Of a stretch of 25,034 bases of DNA, positions 3,416 through 14,103 are shown piece by piece. The notes below the pieces were generated by a model. The model was not told the origin of the DNA, did no database searches, and worked only from the letters and a program-made list of their open reading frames with translations. Numbering within the stretch: position 1 is the first letter of the stretch; the number at the start of each line of letters is the position of its first letter. The stretch is from IMG/VR virus record IMGVR_UViG_3300050015_000192, positions 1-25,034 of that record; one strand, given 5' to 3'. The translations under genes and the position numbers were made by a program. This DNA comes from a virus.

Positions 3416-3714
3416 CAGAGTTGGAGCGGGCGCACGTCATCAACGCCGACGCTCTTGCCCATGCTGCTGCCTCAGCTGGCGGAGAGTTTGGGAAAAAGTG
3501 CGTTGGCGAGGAAGGATACCTGCTTGGTGAGATGCTGAGCCTCTACCTCCATCCACTCATCAATTCGGTTTACGGTGCCGGCCACAACAATGAGGATGCG
3601 CTTAATGCCGCCGTTCTGGTTCTGAAGGGCGCGGACATCGAGATTCCCGACCACATCACGCGGGACATCAAGGCGTTTCACGATACCTACTGTCAGAAGA
3701 AGGTGAAGGCATGA
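3412..3714 (+). CDS. Hypothetical protein
   Basis: A 100-aa protein, starting at an ATGA overlap with the membrane-protein gene and ending in another ATGA overlap with the next gene. It is mostly helical in appearance: an Ala-rich N-terminus (residues 10-25), a central LLGEMLSLYLHPLINSVYG helix and a second Ala/Leu helix around residue 64, with a basic tail. No signature motif or family recognised. The tight overlaps show it belongs to the same operon as its neighbours. Confidence 0.75.
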   Translation: MTELERAHVINADALAHAAASAGGEFGKKCVGEEGYLLGEMLSLYLHPLINSVYGAGHNNEDALNAAVLVLKGADIEIPDHITRDIKAFHDTYCQKKVKA

Positions 3715-3893
3715 GAGAGGAAAAGCTGGTGGCTACGTTGACGATTCACGGCGCACCCGACTTCACGGAGAAAGGGAAGTCGGAAGTTATCGAGTGGTTG
3801 CACAAGCAGTGTGACCGGCTCTATAACCAGAACGACCAGCTGAGCAGACGGTTCACCGCTAAGTATCTGGTCGCCATCAAGAAGAAGGTATAG
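3711..3893 (+). CDS. Hypothetical small protein
   Basis: A 60-aa basic protein coupled to its upstream neighbour by an ATGA overlap. The order is a short beta-like stretch (KLVATLTIHG, residues 5-14), a helix (SEVIEWLHKQCDRLYNQ) and a basic C-terminus ending in IKKKV. No known family is recognised. Its sense frame is intact and of similar codon use to the neighbours, so I treat it as real. Confidence 0.7.
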   Translation: MREEKLVATLTIHGAPDFTEKGKSEVIEWLHKQCDRLYNQNDQLSRRFTAKYLVAIKKKV

Positions 3894-3895
3894 CA

Positions 3896-4165
3896 ATGGA
3901 GAGGGGGACAGGCGGTGTCATGGTTGATGGCTTTGTGCCACTAATCCAGCCCGAGAGGAACGACTACATGAGGATGCTCTATGGCTTGCGCGATGACAAG
4001 ACCTGTGGCTCATGCTTCCATCTCACTCTCAATAAGTGCGGTGGGTTTGAGCTGGCAAACGACAGCCTGGCCTGTGGAAAATGGACAGAGATTCCGAAAC
4101 CAAGGACCGATGCAAACGGAGAAATCGACTGGGCTTCGATGACGGAGGGAAAATGCAAGGACTGA
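3896..4165 (+). CDS. Cys4 putative zinc-binding protein
   Basis: An 89-aa protein with four cysteines arranged CxxC-x7-C-x11-C (Cys37, Cys40, Cys48, Cys60) in the segment from TCGSC to ACGKW. This spacing suggests a small zinc-binding knuckle, although an iron-sulfur site cannot be excluded. The flanks are acidic and probably disordered. A second ATG at codon 9 (3920) is a possible alternative start. The gene overlaps the VRR-NUC gene by 13 bases, so the two are likely co-translated. Function unknown. Confidence 0.75.
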   Translation: MERGTGGVMVDGFVPLIQPERNDYMRMLYGLRDDKTCGSCFHLTLNKCGGFELANDSLACGKWTEIPKPRTDANGEIDWASMTEGKCKD

Positions 4166-4509
4166 AAATCTCAGAACACCAGATTCAGAACACGATACTC
4201 GAGCTGCTGAAGTGGAGGCAGTTGTTTTACTGGCGGAACAATACGGGGGCGGTGGCCAGAAGTTACACGAACAAGGCTGGCCAGACCTCTCATTCCTTTG
4301 TGCGTTTCGGGCAGAAAGGACTCCCTGACATTCTTGTGGTGATGCCCACTGGCAAGTTGCTTGGGATTGAGGTTAAGTCCGCGACCGGCAAGCCGTCACC
4401 GGACCAGCTGGCGTGTCAGCAGGTGTTCAGAGAGACGAACGCCGAGTATCTGATTGTGCGTTCTTCGGAGGAAGTCAATGATTATCTCAATCATCAACTC
4501 GATGCTTAG
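4153..4509 (+). CDS. VRR-NUC domain nuclease
   Basis: The chosen start (ATG 4153) has a GGAGGGA ribosome site and gives 118 aa; the in-frame ATG at 4081 would add 24 residues overlapping the Cys4 gene and lacks a site. VRR-NUC features are present: SEHQIQNTILELL at the N-terminus, WRNNTGA (27-33), GLPDI (56-60, Asp59), the catalytic core GIEVKS (Glu73, Lys75) and a Gln-rich helix (85-90). The family belongs to the PD-(D/E)xK superfamily and includes Fan1-type structure-specific nucleases; phages encode compact single-domain versions like this. It probably acts on branched DNA during replication, recombination or packaging. It overlaps the HNH gene that follows by 32 bases. Confidence 0.9.
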   Translation: MQGLKISEHQIQNTILELLKWRQLFYWRNNTGAVARSYTNKAGQTSHSFVRFGQKGLPDILVVMPTGKLLGIEVKSATGKPSPDQLACQQVFRETNAEYLIVRSSEEVNDYLNHQLDA

Positions 4510-4894
4510 CGAGTTCCGGAAGCAACACCTCATCCCCCATGTCTCGAAGCAGAGGACGCGGCTGGACAATTTCAATGCCTGGGCGATACCCCTGCTCGAG
4601 AGTGGTGAGGTATCGGACGTCCTGAGTCAGGGTCCGGCCTGTGACATTCATCACATCCTGGGCCGGTATGTTGCGCCGGCTCTGGTCGATGACCCGCGCA
4701 ATACCGCCTCCCTGAATCGTGCGAATCATCGGTTGGTGACAGATGGCATCCTGGTCCTCTTTACAGATGGCGAGCGTTGGTACTGCCTGGACAAGAGGAA
4801 CCAGTCTGTTCGGGATATTACCTGGACGGTGTTGGAATATCAACGGACAGCTTTGCGTTTTGCAGAGAAATACGCGAAATATAGAACAAATTGA
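4478..4894 (+). CDS. HNH-type endonuclease
   Basis: The start ATG 4478 has a strong GGAGGAA site 4 bases away; the earlier in-frame ATG (4454) has none. The 138-aa protein has an HNH-like core: CDIHHI (His58-His59), then DPRNTASLNRANHRL (Asn80 and His84). The usual paired CxxC zinc sites are missing, so this is the minimal beta-beta-alpha metal form. Residues 10-50 form a helical N-terminal region and the C-terminus is helical (VLEYQRTALRFAEKYAKY). It follows and overlaps the VRR-NUC gene, and the pair could act as a Holliday-junction or nicking set in DNA processing, which is inference. Promoter 2 begins about 10 bases after its stop. Confidence 0.85.
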   Translation: MIISIINSMLSEFRKQHLIPHVSKQRTRLDNFNAWAIPLLESGEVSDVLSQGPACDIHHILGRYVAPALVDDPRNTASLNRANHRLVTDGILVLFTDGERWYCLDKRNQSVRDITWTVLEYQRTALRFAEKYAKYRTN

Positions 4895-4904
4895 ACGAAA
4901 ACAC

Positions 4905-4932
4905 TTGCAATTCTACAAAATCGTGGTATATT
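4905..4932 (+). promoter_or_regulatory. Promoter 2 (TTGCAA-N16-TATATT)
   Basis: TTGCAA (4905-4910) and TATATT (4927-4932) are separated by 16 bases. The preceding and spacer bases repeat promoter 1: GAAAACACTTGCAA (4897-4910) and ATCGTGGTATA (4920-4930). It lies just after the HNH stop and drives the gene at 4953 with a leader of only about 14 bases, including an AGGGGG ribosome site. Confidence 0.85.
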
Positions 4933-4952
4933 GATTATATGAATAGGGGGAA

Positions 4953-5372
4953 ATGATGAGAATATTCACATCGAGATGGAGTGAGAAAAGTCTGAAGGAC
5001 AGGCCGGATTTGCTCAAGGTCGGTGTCAGCCTGGGCGAACCGAAGTGGCCATTGCCTTACAAGCATGTGTCTTGTCGGCTCCTCAATCCTCTCCCTATCG
5101 CGCTGAAATTGCCGGATGGAGAAGCGCGGATGTCATTTCTTGAGAAGATGCAGCGGGTTGGCGTCAGCAGGGTCAAGGAAGAGTTCAAGAAGATTGAAGA
5201 GGCCAGCGGTGGCATGGACATCGTGCTGCTTTGTTGGGAGAACGTCTGGAAAGGGGAAGGTTGTCACCGCCGCTGGTTCGCAGAGTGGTGGGAGAAAGAG
5301 ACCGGTGAGATTATTGAGGAGCTGCCAGAAGTGGCGACCGCGCCCATTCCTGTGGTAGAGAGTTTGTTCTGA
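4953..5372 (+). CDS. DUF488-like protein
   Basis: The 139-aa protein starts at the first of two adjacent ATGs (4953/4956), behind AGGGGG. The signature is in the C-terminal third: VLLCWEN (residues 91-97, Cys94), then GCHRRWFAEWW (103-113) and TGEIIEEL. DUF488 proteins carry this Cys...CHR pair; biochemical function is undefined, and proposals include nucleic-acid or nucleotide chemistry. The N-terminal part (TSRWSEKSLKD, then LGEPKWPLPY) also fits the family. It is the first gene of the unit transcribed from promoter 2, directly before the antirestriction-like gene (TGATG overlap), so it may belong to the same DNA-modification or host-takeover step; that link is inferred. Confidence 0.75.
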   Translation: MMRIFTSRWSEKSLKDRPDLLKVGVSLGEPKWPLPYKHVSCRLLNPLPIALKLPDGEARMSFLEKMQRVGVSRVKEEFKKIEEASGGMDIVLLCWENVWKGEGCHRRWFAEWWEKETGEIIEELPEVATAPIPVVESLF

Positions 5373-6778
5373 TGTTCGGACAGGACTCAAAACTGCCGGC
5401 CAATCTGCATCCAATGATAGTGGAGTCCTGCCTTTTGTGGGACTCCACTGACGTGTATGTCGGCTCGAGCGGCAAGTTCGCTATGGAGCGGCTGCTGTCA
5501 CCTTTGAGTCGGTTTAAGATTCACAGTCAGGACCAGACGTTGTTCGGGTCCATGTATGGTTCGTATTGCTGGGGGGAGCCGATTCATCTCAGGCTTAAGG
5601 AGAAGTACGCCGAGGCACTGGCCTGGGCCACTCCTTATCTTGATGAGTCTCCAGAGTCTGCCTTGGTTGCCCTGGTCATTCTGGAAAGCATGGCCATAAA
5701 CTTTTTCAAGCGGGACAGCAATGCTTATTATCGAACGATGGCGGCAGAGTACGAGCGGCAGTTTCCGACCGTTCATGCGAAGGCCCTGGCCAAGTTCCAG
5801 TCGACGCCCGTGGTCAAGCTGGTAGAGTTTTCTGGAACGGATGTTGAGAGCTTCTACACCTCCATCCCTGAGGACGCTGCGGTCATCTTCGCACCGGTCC
5901 CGAACCTGAGAGGGTTTGTTCATGACAAGGCCAAGGCGGATGAATTGTTCGACTGGCAAGGTCCTTTCGGTGAGCCGAGGAAAGATGTCGAGCTGCGAGA
6001 CCTGGCCATGTCGATTGTGGCCACACATCGGAAGTGGATGTTGGTTGGTCAAGAGATGCCGGAGCTTCAAGAACATCTGACGGGGTTCGTCAAAGGGTCG
6101 AACATGACGGCCCCCTCATTTATCTACAGCTCCAGCAAGACAACGCGCATAGTCGCGCCCTCTCAGAGCATTGAGCCTTGCAAGTACCCACGGCTGGAAG
6201 AGACGGAGGAATTGGGGACGAAGTTGACCATCCGCAGAATCACATCGGGAGAGTTCCATGAGCTGCGGTCCTTGTATATCGCCAGAACCATCTCACCAGG
6301 TCAGGAGTCTAGGGCGTTTGGCGTATTCGTGGACGAGAAGCTGATTGGACTGTTCGCCTTCAATGATGGCGGCGGTTCGGGCCATCAGACGGAAGGATGG
6401 ATAGACGGTCCGCAGATATACATGCTGTCGGATATGCCGGTGGCTCCGGTGAAGTACAAGAACCTGGCCAAGCTCATCGTCATGGCAGCCGTCAGCAAGG
6501 AAGCGAGGGAGATTGCAGAGACGATGATGAAGCGGCGGTGCCGGTCCCTTATCACTACTGCTTTCACCAGCAGAGAAGTGTCGATGAAGTATCGCGGAGT
6601 CCTGGACCTTCTGAAGAAAGAAGAGGATTCGGACTATGGCGTGAAGCCGGAAGCGAAAAAGTACAAACTCGAGTACGGCGCGCTCATCGGAGTTCACTCA
6701 CTTGACGAGCAGCTTGTCGAATGGAAAAAGCGGTTCAGCCAACTTCGGCAGGTATCTGAGAACGCGGAAACGGAGTAG
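5372..6778 (+). CDS. Putative antirestriction / Mom-like DNA-modification protein
   Basis: A 468-aa two-part protein. The N-terminal half has VYVGSSGKFAMERLL (28-42) followed by HSQDQTLFG (51-59) and, near 171, VIFAPVPN with DWQGP (194-198). These positions match, with degenerate residues, a phage family annotated as putative antirestriction adenine methyltransferase, whose SAM-like motif is usually VGCSGNFxxER followed by HSND and an FPP motif. The C-terminal half (about 283-440) looks like a GNAT fold of the Mom type: KLTIRRIT, FGVFVDEKLIGLFAFND, then long helices and a KYKLEYG strand near the end. Mom acyl-modifies adenines to block restriction. Together with the ParB-like gene next door, a DNA-modification or antirestriction role is likely, but substrate and chemistry are not shown by sequence. 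Start overlaps the previous stop (TGATG). Confidence 0.65.
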   Translation: MFGQDSKLPANLHPMIVESCLLWDSTDVYVGSSGKFAMERLLSPLSRFKIHSQDQTLFGSMYGSYCWGEPIHLRLKEKYAEALAWATPYLDESPESALVALVILESMAINFFKRDSNAYYRTMAAEYERQFPTVHAKALAKFQSTPVVKLVEFSGTDVESFYTSIPEDAAVIFAPVPNLRGFVHDKAKADELFDWQGPFGEPRKDVELRDLAMSIVATHRKWMLVGQEMPELQEHLTGFVKGSNMTAPSFIYSSSKTTRIVAPSQSIEPCKYPRLEETEELGTKLTIRRITSGEFHELRSLYIARTISPGQESRAFGVFVDEKLIGLFAFNDGGGSGHQTEGWIDGPQIYMLSDMPVAPVKYKNLAKLIVMAAVSKEAREIAETMMKRRCRSLITTAFTSREVSMKYRGVLDLLKKEEDSDYGVKPEAKKYKLEYGALIGVHSLDEQLVEWKKRFSQLRQVSENAETE

Positions 6779-6783
6779 TGAAA

Positions 6784-7671
6784 ATGGAGACACGGATTCA
6801 GCAATTCGTACCAAAAGACTTGAAGCTTCTGAGCCTCAATGCGAGGTATTTGCCGAAAGAGCAATATGGTCGGCTGGTCGAGAACGTCAAGAGGGACGGG
6901 AAACTCACCTCAGTTCCTTTTGCCTGTCGAAATGACGATGGTTCGTACCTAGTCCTTTCTGGCAACCATCGAGTGATGGCCGCGATAGACGCCGGCTTGG
7001 AAAGTATCGAGGTGATGACTACCGATGACCCGCTTTCAGAAACGCAGCGCGTGGCCATCCAGCTCAGCCACAACAGCATCGCCGGCCAGGATGACCCCGC
7101 CGTCCTCACTCAGCTGTTTGAGAAGCTGGAGGATGTCGATTGGCGGCTCTATTCAGGACTGGATGACAAGACGCTGGACCTGCTCATGAAGGTCGAGCCG
7201 ATAGCTCCCATTGATGCTCCGCTGGAGTATAAGAGCGTCAACCTCATTTTCCTCCCATCCTCACTTGATGAGGCTAAGAAGTCCCTGGACGAAGCAAAGT
7301 CCATGAGCAAGACGGATGAGACGTGGCTGGCTCTTGGCACGGAATATCAGAGGTGGCTGACAAATATAGATGACGCAGCCGGCAGCGCGGGGGTTTCCAA
7401 CCTGGCCATTGCCCTTCAGGTCATCTTCGACGTTTTCGAGCACCATAAGGCTGACCTGGGAGAGCTGTGGGACAACGATGGGGCTGACCCTCATGCCTGG
7501 GTTCCTCTGGTTGGTATGACGGGCAGGACATCCATACCGGTCATTGAGGGCCGGACGCTGAAGAAAGCGATAGAGAGAATTGTTGGTCAAGAAAAAGTCA
7601 ACGTCAAGAAACCGTGGGAGGCTCTGGCTTACATGGCAGACTTCTACTTGCAACATGAAAAGGAGAAATAA
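6784..7671 (+). CDS. ParB/Srx-fold N-terminal domain protein
   Basis: About 295 aa. ATG 6784 has GGAG 8 bases upstream; the alternative GTG 6778 lies only 2 bases from that site. Residues about 8-110 form a ParB N-terminal-like domain: LSLNARYLPKEQYGRLVENV, then YLVLSGNHRVMAAIDAG (the conserved G-x-R/H box) and VAIQLSHNSIAGQDD. The helix-turn-helix and partner sites of chromosomal ParB are absent; residues 150-295 are a helical region of unknown nature. Phage ParB-like proteins of this kind often sit next to terminase and antirestriction-methylase genes and may act as nucleases or CTPase switches. It is flanked by exactly those neighbours here. Its stop overlaps the small terminase start (TAATG). 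Confidence 0.85.
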   Translation: METRIQQFVPKDLKLLSLNARYLPKEQYGRLVENVKRDGKLTSVPFACRNDDGSYLVLSGNHRVMAAIDAGLESIEVMTTDDPLSETQRVAIQLSHNSIAGQDDPAVLTQLFEKLEDVDWRLYSGLDDKTLDLLMKVEPIAPIDAPLEYKSVNLIFLPSSLDEAKKSLDEAKSMSKTDETWLALGTEYQRWLTNIDDAAGSAGVSNLAIALQVIFDVFEHHKADLGELWDNDGADPHAWVPLVGMTGRTSIPVIEGRTLKKAIERIVGQEKVNVKKPWEALAYMADFYLQHEKEK

Positions 7672-8252
7672 TGGGAAGGATTATGTCACCAGCTGAAGAA
7701 GTCGCTGAACAGGTAACTCGGGCCGCCGTTCCACTTTGGGAACGTCAGGCAGGGGAAACCAGCAAGCAGTTCGAGGCCTTTGTGGTCTATCGAGACATGG
7801 AGGACCGGACCTTGCATAAGACCGCAGCAGCTTTAGGGAAGAGTATGACTCCCATAGCTCATTGGGCGGTGAAAAGAAACTGGCGGTTCAGAGCGCGGGC
7901 CTGGGAGGACCACCTTCAAGAACTGAAGCTGGCCAGTATGGAGCAGGAAGTCAAGGATATGGTCAAACGTCATGCCGTTATCGCCTTGGGTATGACGAAC
8001 AAGGTAGCGGCGCGGCTCTCTACTTTTGATTCCACGGCACTCTCCGCTTCAGATATGGCCAAGTGGCTTGAAACGGCGGTCAAGGTCGAGCGTTTGAGCC
8101 GTGGCCAGCCAACTGACAACATCTCATCTCACCATGAGGGAGAAGTCACGATAAGCTCGCCTCTGATTGACCGTCTGGCCAATGACGAGGAGTTCAGGAA
8201 GTTCTGCCTTGCCGATTCTGTCGAAACAGACAATCCGACAAGCAGCGATTAA
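7671..8252 (+). CDS. terS: Terminase small subunit (putative)
   Basis: A 193-aa protein directly before the large terminase gene, starting at TAATG with an AAGGAG site. Residues about 44-70 (RTLHKTAAALGKSMTPIAHWAVKRNW region) look like a helix-turn-helix of the type in small terminase subunits: a KTAxALG helix followed by a recognition helix ending in Trp. It is followed by long charged helices (RARAWEDHLQELKL, KDMVKRHAVIALGMTNKVAARL) suited to an oligomerisation core and an acidic C-terminal tail. The small subunit recognises phage DNA and feeds it to the large-subunit motor. The family is poorly conserved, so the call rests on HTH, helical architecture and position. The large subunit gene overlaps its 3' end in another frame. 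Confidence 0.8.
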   Translation: MGRIMSPAEEVAEQVTRAAVPLWERQAGETSKQFEAFVVYRDMEDRTLHKTAAALGKSMTPIAHWAVKRNWRFRARAWEDHLQELKLASMEQEVKDMVKRHAVIALGMTNKVAARLSTFDSTALSASDMAKWLETAVKVERLSRGQPTDNISSHHEGEVTISSPLIDRLANDEEFRKFCLADSVETDNPTSSD

Positions 8253-11115: not shown

Positions 11116-14103
11116 ATGAATCCTCAGGAGAGAACTCAGTGGTTGATGGCTATTCAGGCCCAAACCGCTGCTCAGGTTACTAAGGACATAGGCGCAAAGG
11201 ACTGGAACGCTATTTGTAATCTTCAGTTGGCGTACCACGATTCGATGAAGGACATCTCATCATACCTCATGAAGATTGCACAGGACGGGAAGTACAATGA
11301 ACGGCTCATTACCAGTGCAATTCAGAGGTCCAATGTTTTCGCTGGCCTGGACAAGATAACGAGGAATCAGTACAGGAATGTCACGGCCAACGTCACGCAG
11401 TCGATGAAGCAGATTTGTGGCCAGGGCTGGAATGGCCTGAACGAGACACTGGACGCCGCCGTTGCTGGAGGGAAGGTGGCAGTTTCCCTTGGCAAGATAC
11501 CCACCACAGCGGTGAACGCGATTCTGAGCTTCCCTTATAAGGGCGAGATGTTCAGTGAGCGGTTGGGAGAAGTTTCCTCTCAGCAAGCACTTGGAATCCA
11601 GCGCTCTCTGGTCAACTCTATCATCGAGGGAGAGAGTATCGACACCGCGGCCAACCGCATCATTCAGAAGGTCATGCCGATGTCTCAGAATCGTGCGGTT
11701 ATCATTGCCCGTACTGAGATGGCTCGAGCCGATTCAATGGCAAGAGAGGCCTGGATTAAGGTGAATGGTAAGTACCTCAAGGGCCGGCAGTATTGGGCCG
11801 CTCCCGATGAACTGACCTGTAGAACTTGCGCAGGGTATGATGGCAGGGAATGGCCAATAGAGGCTACCGACTTTCCACTCACTCCTGTCCATCCATGCTG
11901 CCGGTGCCAGTGGTTCTTCGTGTTCAAGACTCCTGAGGAGATTGCCGCCACAATGGGGCAGAAGTACCAAGCGTGGAAAGGCGATAGTAGTGCCGTTAGC
12001 ACTGCCTTGAACAAGGCTCAGACCTCCTGGACAAACTGGTTCCGCTCGCAGCCCGCAGAATTGAGAGACAATCTTCTGGCCAAGGGCTTTGTTGTCCCTG
12101 GGATGCAGGAAGCAATACCGGTCCATGCTACGGAAGAGTGGCGCGCTACGTTGACGGATACGGAAGGGAAAATCAGGGACAACCTCAGCCTTGACATCAA
12201 GGATGAGTACATGAAAACGTATACCGACTTCATGGACGACAAGACAGAGAAGTCTCACGAGATGTGGCGGAAGATGGAGGACAAGTATAAGTTGTCCCGT
12301 GAGGAAATCTTACAGAAGGTAGAGGACGCGCGGCAGCATATCCTCACATCTCCATCCACTACTTCATTGTACCGCGACCTTGGAGGAGTCTACACGCCAG
12401 AGCGCGAAGCCCTGCATCAGCAGATTCTCGATGAGTTCTTTTCCAACAGGGGCAAGCTGGTCATCGATTCGGATGAGTTCAAGACGATGCTCGTCAGGGC
12501 GGATAGGGCAGAGCTTTCGTTGAACGCTTCGGTCTATCACTCGGAGTCTGCCGACATCCTGAATCAAGCGGTTCAGCGCGCGATTAAGGAAGGACGAGAC
12601 ATCGTAATTGATGGAACGATGTCGGGAACGCAGCGGTATTCGGAGATGCTGGCTGAGTTTGTGAAGAAGGGCTGGAATACAGAGATGGCGTTCGTGGACA
12701 CCCCGATGGATGAGAGCATGGGAAATGCCCTGTCTCGGTTCCTTAGTGGTGGACGATTCGTTGACCCGCTTTTGACGGCTTCGGAAGATGGCCTGAACCT
12801 GGCCACCTATGAGGCCATGAAGAATGGCGTTGAGAAAACAACAATGTGGAGTGGCGGCTTCTGGAAACAGGCCGTGTTCGACGGCTCGAACGATGGCAGC
12901 TTTGTGGTCAACATGAACAGTAAGCCAACGGTCCTATTTACTGGTGGCTTCCCTGGGGCCGGCAAGTCCTCAGCTCTGGAAAGTGCCATGAAGGACATCC
13001 GCGACCTGAACCATCAAGACCTTGTTGGTTCATTCGTGAAGTTGATTCAGGAGAAGCCGGAAGGACCACAAATCTTCAAGTGGCTGGCGGACCCCGAACA
13101 ACAGGCCGCTTCTATGGCTAAGTGGAACAATAAGGATAGGGCAATTCTCGAGGCTGCGGCACAGAAATATGGTGGCATCATCAACATGAAAGATGCTGAC
13201 ACCGCTGCTAATTTCATCAGCCGTTTCTCACCAATATTCGACGATGCAACTCCAGATGATTGGGGCTGGCTGCGCGAGCAGTACATGGACCGGTTTGGAA
13301 CGACCAAGGACGCGAGGCTGCTAAAGGATTGTATGCAAGCGTGGAGTGTAGATTCGGGAAGCTCTGGTGGAAATCTCATGCAGGCGTTGGTCAATAGGGC
13401 GCAAGGGCTGGACGTTGAGACCAACATTCGATTTGGTGGCGACGCGAAGGGAATCAGTTCTTGGCTCGGTGCCTATGCTCAGAACGATACCGGTTTTGTG
13501 GACAATAAGAGCATGGTGAAGTGGATGGAAGAGAAGATTGGCGGAGTCAGTCCAGAGGATTCTTTCAAGGCATGGACCGCGTTTAATCAGCAAGCGGAGA
13601 GAGTAGTCACTGGTGGGAAAGTGAAAACGCTATATCGAGGAGTCAATGGCAATGCTGCCATAAGGGAACTCCTGGGTGGCGAGAATCCTATAGGAGCAGC
13701 GGGCAATATCTGGAACACCGCATCGCACTTTGTTGGGGGTAGCTCTCCTGGTACAGTTTCGGAAAAGCTGGCACAGTTCTTGGCTAAGAATCCTTTTGAT
13801 GCGAGCGAGATGGCCGATGCCAGAAACCTCCTTACTGAACCTCTTAGTATACCGTTTGGACCTCTTCAGTCATGGAGTATGGATTCCCATACGGCGCGGG
13901 GTTTTGGCACTAAGGTGATTGCCAGCAAGGTCACCTGGGCTGATTCTTTCGCTTTCGACATCTCTGACCCCGCCCTCACTGGAGAGTATGAGTGGTTGCT
14001 TCTTAAGCCCCTCGACTACAAGCCGGAGTTTACGTTCACACAGTTCGCAAATTGGGCTAAGGAAAATGGTTTCATGGCTAAGTTTCAGCAAGGGGGCTTC
14101 TAG
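11116..14103 (+). CDS. MuF minor head protein fused to zeta-like kinase and ADP-ribosyltransferase
   Basis: A 995-aa multidomain protein after the portal gene (GGGAGC site, ATG 11116). Residues 1-275: SPP1 gp7/MuF-type minor head protein, with RTEMARADS (199-207) and a Cys/His knuckle at CRTC (235-238) and HPCCRC (259-264). Residues 427-600: most of a zeta-toxin-like kinase, RxxLHQQILDEF, VIDSDEF (449-455), YHSES (474-478), DGT (499-501), R541 and R547, and a FDGSNDG strand. The expected P-loop is missing before VIDSDEF and instead follows at GFPGAGKSS (611-619). Residues about 836-966: an ART domain with LYRG (Arg841), SWS (919-921) and EYE (957-959), the R-S-ExE signature of Vip2/T4 Alt-type enzymes. 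MuF toxins are loaded into heads; I infer an injected effector modifying host targets. Head-to-toxin linkers are helical. Confidence 0.9.
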   Translation: MNPQERTQWLMAIQAQTAAQVTKDIGAKDWNAICNLQLAYHDSMKDISSYLMKIAQDGKYNERLITSAIQRSNVFAGLDKITRNQYRNVTANVTQSMKQICGQGWNGLNETLDAAVAGGKVAVSLGKIPTTAVNAILSFPYKGEMFSERLGEVSSQQALGIQRSLVNSIIEGESIDTAANRIIQKVMPMSQNRAVIIARTEMARADSMAREAWIKVNGKYLKGRQYWAAPDELTCRTCAGYDGREWPIEATDFPLTPVHPCCRCQWFFVFKTPEEIAATMGQKYQAWKGDSSAVSTALNKAQTSWTNWFRSQPAELRDNLLAKGFVVPGMQEAIPVHATEEWRATLTDTEGKIRDNLSLDIKDEYMKTYTDFMDDKTEKSHEMWRKMEDKYKLSREEILQKVEDARQHILTSPSTTSLYRDLGGVYTPEREALHQQILDEFFSNRGKLVIDSDEFKTMLVRADRAELSLNASVYHSESADILNQAVQRAIKEGRDIVIDGTMSGTQRYSEMLAEFVKKGWNTEMAFVDTPMDESMGNALSRFLSGGRFVDPLLTASEDGLNLATYEAMKNGVEKTTMWSGGFWKQAVFDGSNDGSFVVNMNSKPTVLFTGGFPGAGKSSALESAMKDIRDLNHQDLVGSFVKLIQEKPEGPQIFKWLADPEQQAASMAKWNNKDRAILEAAAQKYGGIINMKDADTAANFISRFSPIFDDATPDDWGWLREQYMDRFGTTKDARLLKDCMQAWSVDSGSSGGNLMQALVNRAQGLDVETNIRFGGDAKGISSWLGAYAQNDTGFVDNKSMVKWMEEKIGGVSPEDSFKAWTAFNQQAERVVTGGKVKTLYRGVNGNAAIRELLGGENPIGAAGNIWNTASHFVGGSSPGTVSEKLAQFLAKNPFDASEMADARNLLTEPLSIPFGPLQSWSMDSHTARGFGTKVIASKVTWADSFAFDISDPALTGEYEWLLLKPLDYKPEFTFTQFANWAKENGFMAKFQQGGF

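Follow-up and report, generated by a model that had tools for sequence, protein, structure and literature searches.

The window, meaning the whole 25,034-base stretch of DNA that was analyzed, is a virus record and possibly a fragment. It harbors a triad of genes in the 5' to 3' order DUF488-like gene, 468-aa enzyme gene, and ParB-like gene, followed by the terminase small-subunit gene. The features of the locus are as follows.

4905..4932, plus strand: promoter-like site, TTGCAA-16-TATATT with TG before the second hexamer, identified by consensus match alone
4956..5372, plus strand: DUF488-like gene, 138 to 139 aa, with start ATG at 4953 or 4956 and stop TGA at 5370-5372
5372..6778, plus strand: 468-aa Dam-like plus GNAT-like enzyme (domain matches, AlphaFold model, VIA-align)
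5393..6193, plus strand: Dam-like half of the enzyme (DAM-like-phage1, residues 8 to 274), degenerate, off-consensus at 11 of 24 conserved columns
5888..5905, plus strand: FAPVPN (residues 173 to 178) at the methylase motif IV position, where most relatives have [FY]PP[FT]
6218..6733, plus strand: GNAT-like half of the enzyme (GNAT-phage-like, residues 283 to 454), conserved, off-consensus at 4 of 30 columns
6778..7671, plus strand: ParB-like gene with an SGNHR box, 297 aa from GTG 6778 or 295 aa from ATG 6784
7671..8252, plus strand: terminase small subunit (context; phrog_6299, 1.1e-19), overlapping the ParB-like stop

As the initial annotation proposed, the three genes are coupled and end at terminase. 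The DUF488-like and 468-aa reading frames share a TGATG overlap at 5372, the stop TAG of the latter (6776-6778) touches the ParB-like GTG at 6778, and the ParB-like gene joins the phrog_6299 small-subunit gene through a TAATG overlap at 7671, with the terminase large subunit next in the window. The ParB-like gene more likely starts at ATG 6784, which is in the same frame and preceded at 8 nt by GGAG, than at GTG 6778. The promoter-like site matches 9 of 12 consensus positions and lies inside a 58-nt AT-rich gap; the scanned stretch holds seven such sites, versus 2.2 ± 1.5 in shuffles. The promoter proposed for the triad is a candidate by its match to the consensus. Upstream of the triad lie a VRR-NUC gene (4081-4509) and a reading frame (4481-4894) with an HNH-like pattern seen by eye (DIHHILGR...NTASLNRANHRL) and no significant family match. 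Elsewhere in the window, a nucleoside 2-deoxyribosyltransferase-like gene (119-1059; DUF7768, phrog_355) overlaps a dUTPase gene, and a single reading frame at 11116-14103 encodes a 995-aa head protein in which a domain like the Zeta toxin kinase (Pfam 8.2e-17) accompanies a Mu F-like one.

The 468-aa enzyme does join a methylase-like N-terminal half to a GNAT-like C-terminal half, as was suspected from its sequence. Residues 8 to 274 match DAM-like-phage1 (5.8e-40, 137.7 bits) and residues 283 to 454 match GNAT-phage-like (4.1e-45, 154 bits), each against a Pfam cut-off of 27. An AlphaFold model built with 62 sequences has a mean pLDDT of 90.8 and a pTM of 0.84, and its fold, which the initial annotation allowed might prove unrelated to either enzyme class, did not prove so: a Dam-type half is followed by a GNAT half. 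In VIA-align, residues 1 to 256 superpose on E. coli Dam (Z 12.1, rmsd 4.6, 194 aligned), and the first half also aligns with T4 Dam (Z 11.7) and DpnM (Z 11.0); the top structure, just above E. coli Dam, is an entry titled Mcbe1 (Z 12.4). The fold shared with these three Dam proteins spans residues 1 to 257 at Z 11 to 12, and the acidic positions D54 and D157, conserved in the enzyme family, are a further likeness to Dam; unlike Dam, the enzyme lacks the D/N/S-PP-Y motif and carries a C-terminal GNAT, and identity is only 8 to 14%. A sequence search against solved structures returned coiled-coil matches alone (E ≥ 0.09), and PADLOC and NCBIfam gave no useful match.

The GNAT half (residues 282 to 441) superposes on phage Mu Mom (PDB 8bv8; Z 11.2, rmsd 3.6, 150 aligned), at about 10% identity and to a protein that has no Dam-like half, and SbzI (Z 11.2) and 1y9k (Z 11.0) tie with Mom. 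A profile of nine Mom-family proteins scored 40.4 against the GNAT half (probability 78.8), in an alignment reliable over 80 columns only; with the columns shuffled 40 times the score never exceeded 16.6, and the Dam half gave 12.9. This score shows kinship of GNAT domains, which alone could explain it, and does not make the enzyme a Mom; the profile alignment did not bring out the conserved sequence motifs of Mom. At the position that we match to Mom S124, 64 of 126 relatives have serine and 53 have alanine, the window included among the latter. The earlier label "Mom-like" holds for the GNAT fold, for which other GNATs score equally. The product of the Mom family is carbamoylmethyl-adenine. 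In Microbacterium phage Antuna, a Mom-like acetyltransferase gene without a Dam-like half overlaps a ParB-like gene (positions 3469-4621 of locus L243).

Foldseek placed Naa60 protein acetyltransferases at the top for the GNAT half, with Mom lower (E = 8.6e-4). The closest GNAT structures by this search are thus protein N-acetyltransferases, and an extract of PMC7824862 describes phage GNATs acting on host RNA polymerase, so that the GNAT might instead acetylate a host protein, such as RNA polymerase or a nuclease, with the Dam-like half serving only to dock it on DNA. We consider this distinctly unlikely, as the Dam fold and a nearly obligatory ParB partner point to a DNA substrate.

That partnership emerges from the relatives. 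Scanning viral contigs with the 468-aa sequence alone gave seven pattern matches and no relatives, whereas an alignment query did find them. The enzyme occurs in 13 annotated phage records (8 Mycobacterium, 5 Gordonia) at 31 to 34% identity, several of them annotated as DNA methyltransferase, and a more distant homologue is found in Faecalibacterium phage FP_Brigit. The system is common across phages; by record titles, the hosts of carriers include Actinomycetota, Bacillota, Chloroflexota, Planctomycetota, and Bacteroidota. The best 80 of 124 viral relatives found with the enzyme alignment, together with 76 genome loci, made up 156 loci, and the best 80 of 182 relatives found with the ParB alignment contributed 76 new loci (set B); both sets contain some duplicate contigs. 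Among the listed loci found by the enzyme alone, 155 of 156 have a ParB homologue (the exception is L075), and in 145 of these 155 the ParB domain starts between -150 and +400 nt from the enzyme stop. Conversely, the enzyme is present in 73 of the 76 listed loci found by ParB alone. Because the pairing recurs in nearly every listed locus found by the enzyme alone, it goes beyond chance. DUF488 is also a partner: among 56 nonredundant loci with at least 5.5 kb upstream, it lies somewhere in the stretch in 43 and out of reach in 13, and in 34 it lies no more than 3 kb upstream in the same orientation. Both associations uphold the earlier suggestion that ParB and DUF488 are partners of the enzyme.

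A count of recurrent neighbors among 71 loci, with clusters in more than 16 loci taken as clear families, gave ParB in 71, DUF488 in 40, terminase large subunit in 35, and terminase small subunit in 35. One smaller cluster (at most 16 loci) is a second DUF488-like group, and a large antisense cluster, seen in 67 loci, was not counted, since it overlaps the triad genes themselves. A second ParB homologue lies upstream of the triad in one locus (L061, 4218-5066). FP_Brigit, Gordonia phages Sting and Clawz, and Mycobacterium phage Argie all have homologues of the three proteins, 20 to 41% identical to those of the window; in the Gordonia and Mycobacterium phages, unlike in the window, the DUF488 gene is placed several genes upstream. 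In FP_Brigit, a gene annotated as S-adenosylmethionine synthetase lies upstream of the triad (L002, 4494-5672).

The position of the triad raises the alternative that it acts on DNA ends or on the packaging site, preparing or marking them for terminase, with the DUF488-like protein as end processor and the ParB-like protein as loader. Among 109 nonredundant loci with at least 4 kb downstream, the terminase large subunit lies within 4 kb downstream in 58 and the small subunit in 37; the overlapping stop and start codons where the window's ParB-like and small terminase genes meet and the same order in FP_Brigit, where the terminase genes directly follow the triad, fit this alternative as well. 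Burroughs and Aravind reportedly predicted in 2023 that DUF488-clade enzymes process DNA ends in modification systems, and we infer that the same work is the source of the Pfam names. However, the triad is not beside terminase in Argie, nor in Sting or Clawz within the stretches read, and a role in packaging leaves the GNAT unexplained; we therefore regard it as unlikely.

The ParB-like protein falls below the Pfam cut-off for ParB (12.8 versus 26.3 bits) and matches phrog_7405 at 2.8e-65. The G-x-H-R type box of ParB and sulfiredoxin is present as SGNHR, and in 43 aligned sequences S61, G62, and H64 are invariant and R65 is conserved in at least 90%. According to extracts of two papers, NTP binding is a property of ParB folds, and some of them are nucleases (PMC12704722, PMC5512222). 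A link between ParB and DUF488 exists elsewhere, since an archaeal ParB fold fused to DUF488-HTH binds CTP, as an extract of the first of these papers describes (PMC12704722). The DUF488 label is weak for the window protein itself, which scores 14.0 bits against a DUF488 cut-off of 22.2, has no Pfam match at E ≤ 0.01, and lies below the Pfam cut-off for DUF488-N3a. In an alignment of this protein and 59 relatives, 41 of the 60 sequences match DUF488-N3a, and C93, C103, H104, and R105 (numbered from 4956) are invariant, the window included. Its model is confident (pLDDT 94.6); when it was compared with solved structures for a rhodanese-phosphatase fold, Foldseek gave no match at E ≤ 0.001, and the best VIA-align matches were CbiL (Z 6.4), rhodanese-like 3g5j (5.3), and PTPs (about 5).

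Dam-type N6-adenine methylases carry motif IV in the form (D/N/S)PP(Y/F/W), and the D/N/S residue of this motif hydrogen-bonds the target amino group in amino-methylases. In 126 relatives retained after reduction at 90% identity, window included, the motif reads [FY]PP[FTAI] in 103, with F or Y where methylases have the catalytic D/N/S; [NS]PPT and APPT occur in three each, and 17 have no PP (one of these, L066, is a truncated protein). The residue that bonds the target amino group is thus missing in nearly the whole family. Among named phages, the sequence is NPPTY in FP_Brigit and FPPF in Sting, Clawz, and Argie, against FAPVPN in the window. Motif I is mostly GCSGNF, all 122 rows with a residue at position 54 keep D54, 122 of the 125 with one at position 157 keep D157, and SAM-pocket positions appear to persist in the family, the assignment to methylase motifs I to III being our reading of pattern and fold.

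Five relatives (L220, L112, L099, L079, and L147) have inserts with intein signatures just past FPP[FT]. They match NF038136 (6e-15 to 7e-9) and TIGR01445 (5e-6 to 0.017, above cut-off in L079 alone), and two of the five have a sub-threshold LAGLIDADG match in Pfam; L113, by eye near-identical to L112, has no insert. Because inteins favor conserved active-site sequence, their location suggests that the motif IV loop matters in most members.

An ordinary N6-adenine methylase with a bystander GNAT would account for the Dam fold (Z about 12), the annotation of relatives as DNA methyltransferases, and the retention of D54 and D157. Against this, [NS]PP occurs in only 3 of 126 relatives and F or Y in 103, the window lacks even the PP, and the GNAT half is the better conserved where the halves diverge. 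We reject this explanation on motif IV as very improbable. The initial description of a degenerate methylase motif was right in that FAPVPN replaces motif IV; however, loss of the canonical motif is nearly family-wide, and the window is an extreme case.

VGSSGKF (residues 30 to 36) and FAPVPN sit where relatives carry motifs I and IV, respectively. To compare the halves, we counted deviations at columns conserved in at least 80% of 122 proteins (four gappy ones were dropped), 24 columns in the Dam half and 30 in the GNAT half. The median protein deviates at two positions in each half, whereas the window deviates at 11 and 4, L049 at 14 and 1, and L121 at 13 and 2, respectively; only L049 and L121 exceed the window in the Dam half. 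In a tree of the GNAT half whose bootstrap is not quite settled, the window pairs with L173 (96/84) and L049 with L022 (100/86), while L121 has no clear placement. As L173 and L022 both have an intact PPF, at least two of the motif losses were probably independent. Having lost motif IV and other methylase signatures, the window enzyme is predicted to be a methylase-dead variant. Alternatively, the loss could be a sign of decay throughout the window copy, but its conserved GNAT half argues against this.

The best viral-library match of the 468-aa enzyme is a 695-aa "amidoligase enzyme," aligned over the whole length (E = 2.3e-24). In L049, an extra 423-aa gene with Acetyltransf_7 and Amidoligase_2 (2.1e-41) domains lies between DUF488 and the enzyme (4709-5980). 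In 14 further loci, some of them near-duplicates, a single reading frame combines an amidoligase, DAM-like-phage2, and GNAT (checked with Pfam in five), and the three with named records are Bacteroidales. DUF488 lies ahead of all 14 fused reading frames and ParB after 13, the remaining locus (L256) ending at the contig edge; by eye, the fused forms lack the GxSG and PP motifs. A broader amidoligase model, which had extended into the Dam-like part, for that reason gave weak matches (E = 1e-5 to 0.006) to some enzyme reading frames. An amidoligase-only model (E ≤ 0.05) found, in the loci examined, the 14 fused loci and L049 (same contig as L300) and nothing else, and none in L121 or the window; as it was built from the same group, other types or genes beyond the flanks could escape it. 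In the loci examined, amidoligases therefore occur only with degenerate methylase halves, as one separate gene and in 14 fused loci.

A bolder reading is a hypermodification pathway with swappable first steps and the same Mom-type GNAT for finishing. The Dam-like domain, with an aromatic residue for D/N/S, would add a nonmethyl or otherwise unusual group to the base in most relatives, the amidoligase would take over the first step in others, and members of the window type would have dropped it, leaving the GNAT to work by itself on a scaffold of Dam shape. We think this elaboration quite unlikely as it stands.

The triad is a relative of a catalogued phage DAM-like/GNAT/ParB/DUF488 system (PF22555, PF22559, PF22751), because Pfam lists both enzyme halves and an "active DUF488-N3" family. 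Both Pfam enzyme domains are found in one protein of the window, with the ParB-like gene directly downstream. The catalogued families DAM-like-phage1/2 and GNAT-phage-like (PF22555, PF22556, PF22559) and DUF488-N3a (PF22751) have the same domain order and DUF488- and ParB-like neighbors, so this kind of fusion, with these partners, was already on record. The window copy differs in that it has lost motif IV and other methylase signatures, shows no detectable amidoligase, and has a DUF488-like protein below cut-off. We found no study of these Pfam families in the open-licence literature. New here are the ParB pairing count, the motif IV census, the inteins at motif IV, the losses in the Dam half, and the amidoligase distribution.

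An unusual DNA base modification is the likeliest predicted use of the triad. We favor DNA modification because one confident model joins the fold of a DNA enzyme, Dam, to a GNAT fold, and Mom is a DNA-modifying GNAT. The recurrent ParB, DUF488, and terminase neighbors, the conservation of the GNAT half where the Dam half degenerates, the profile score against Mom, and the gene pair of Antuna also speak for it; the Foldseek ranking of Naa60, the ties with Mom in VIA-align, the alanine matched to Mom S124, and the 13 loci with DUF488 out of reach speak against it. More specifically, we give about an even chance to phage DNA being acylated in a Mom-like way at the time of packaging, with the three-gene system at the head of the packaging genes as the modifier. 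The GNAT half would be the indispensable catalyst and would act like phage Mu Mom, transferring an acyl group, probably from an acyl-CoA donor, to an amino group, most likely on a DNA base, while the Dam-like half would grip the DNA and present the base. In most relatives the Dam-like half, which keeps SAM-binding signatures, probably performs an altered, noncanonical SAM-dependent step of its own; in the window copy, without its active-site motif, it may act as a scaffold that mainly holds the DNA. The ParB-like protein, whose SGNHR box is of the NTP/nuclease type, may use it to load onto DNA due for modification or to mark that DNA, or may instead act on DNA left unmodified. The DUF488-like protein, with its invariant Cys and Cys-His-Arg, may make a nucleotide or sugar-phosphate group ready or process it. 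All this would serve to shield packaged DNA from host restriction.

Overall, the GNAT is constant, the methylase site is altered or lost, and, in the loci examined, an amidoligase is present only where that site is lost, a pattern that tells us which half to assay. It predicts a new DNA modification, for which the cultured phages of Mycobacterium and Gordonia offer an immediate place to look.
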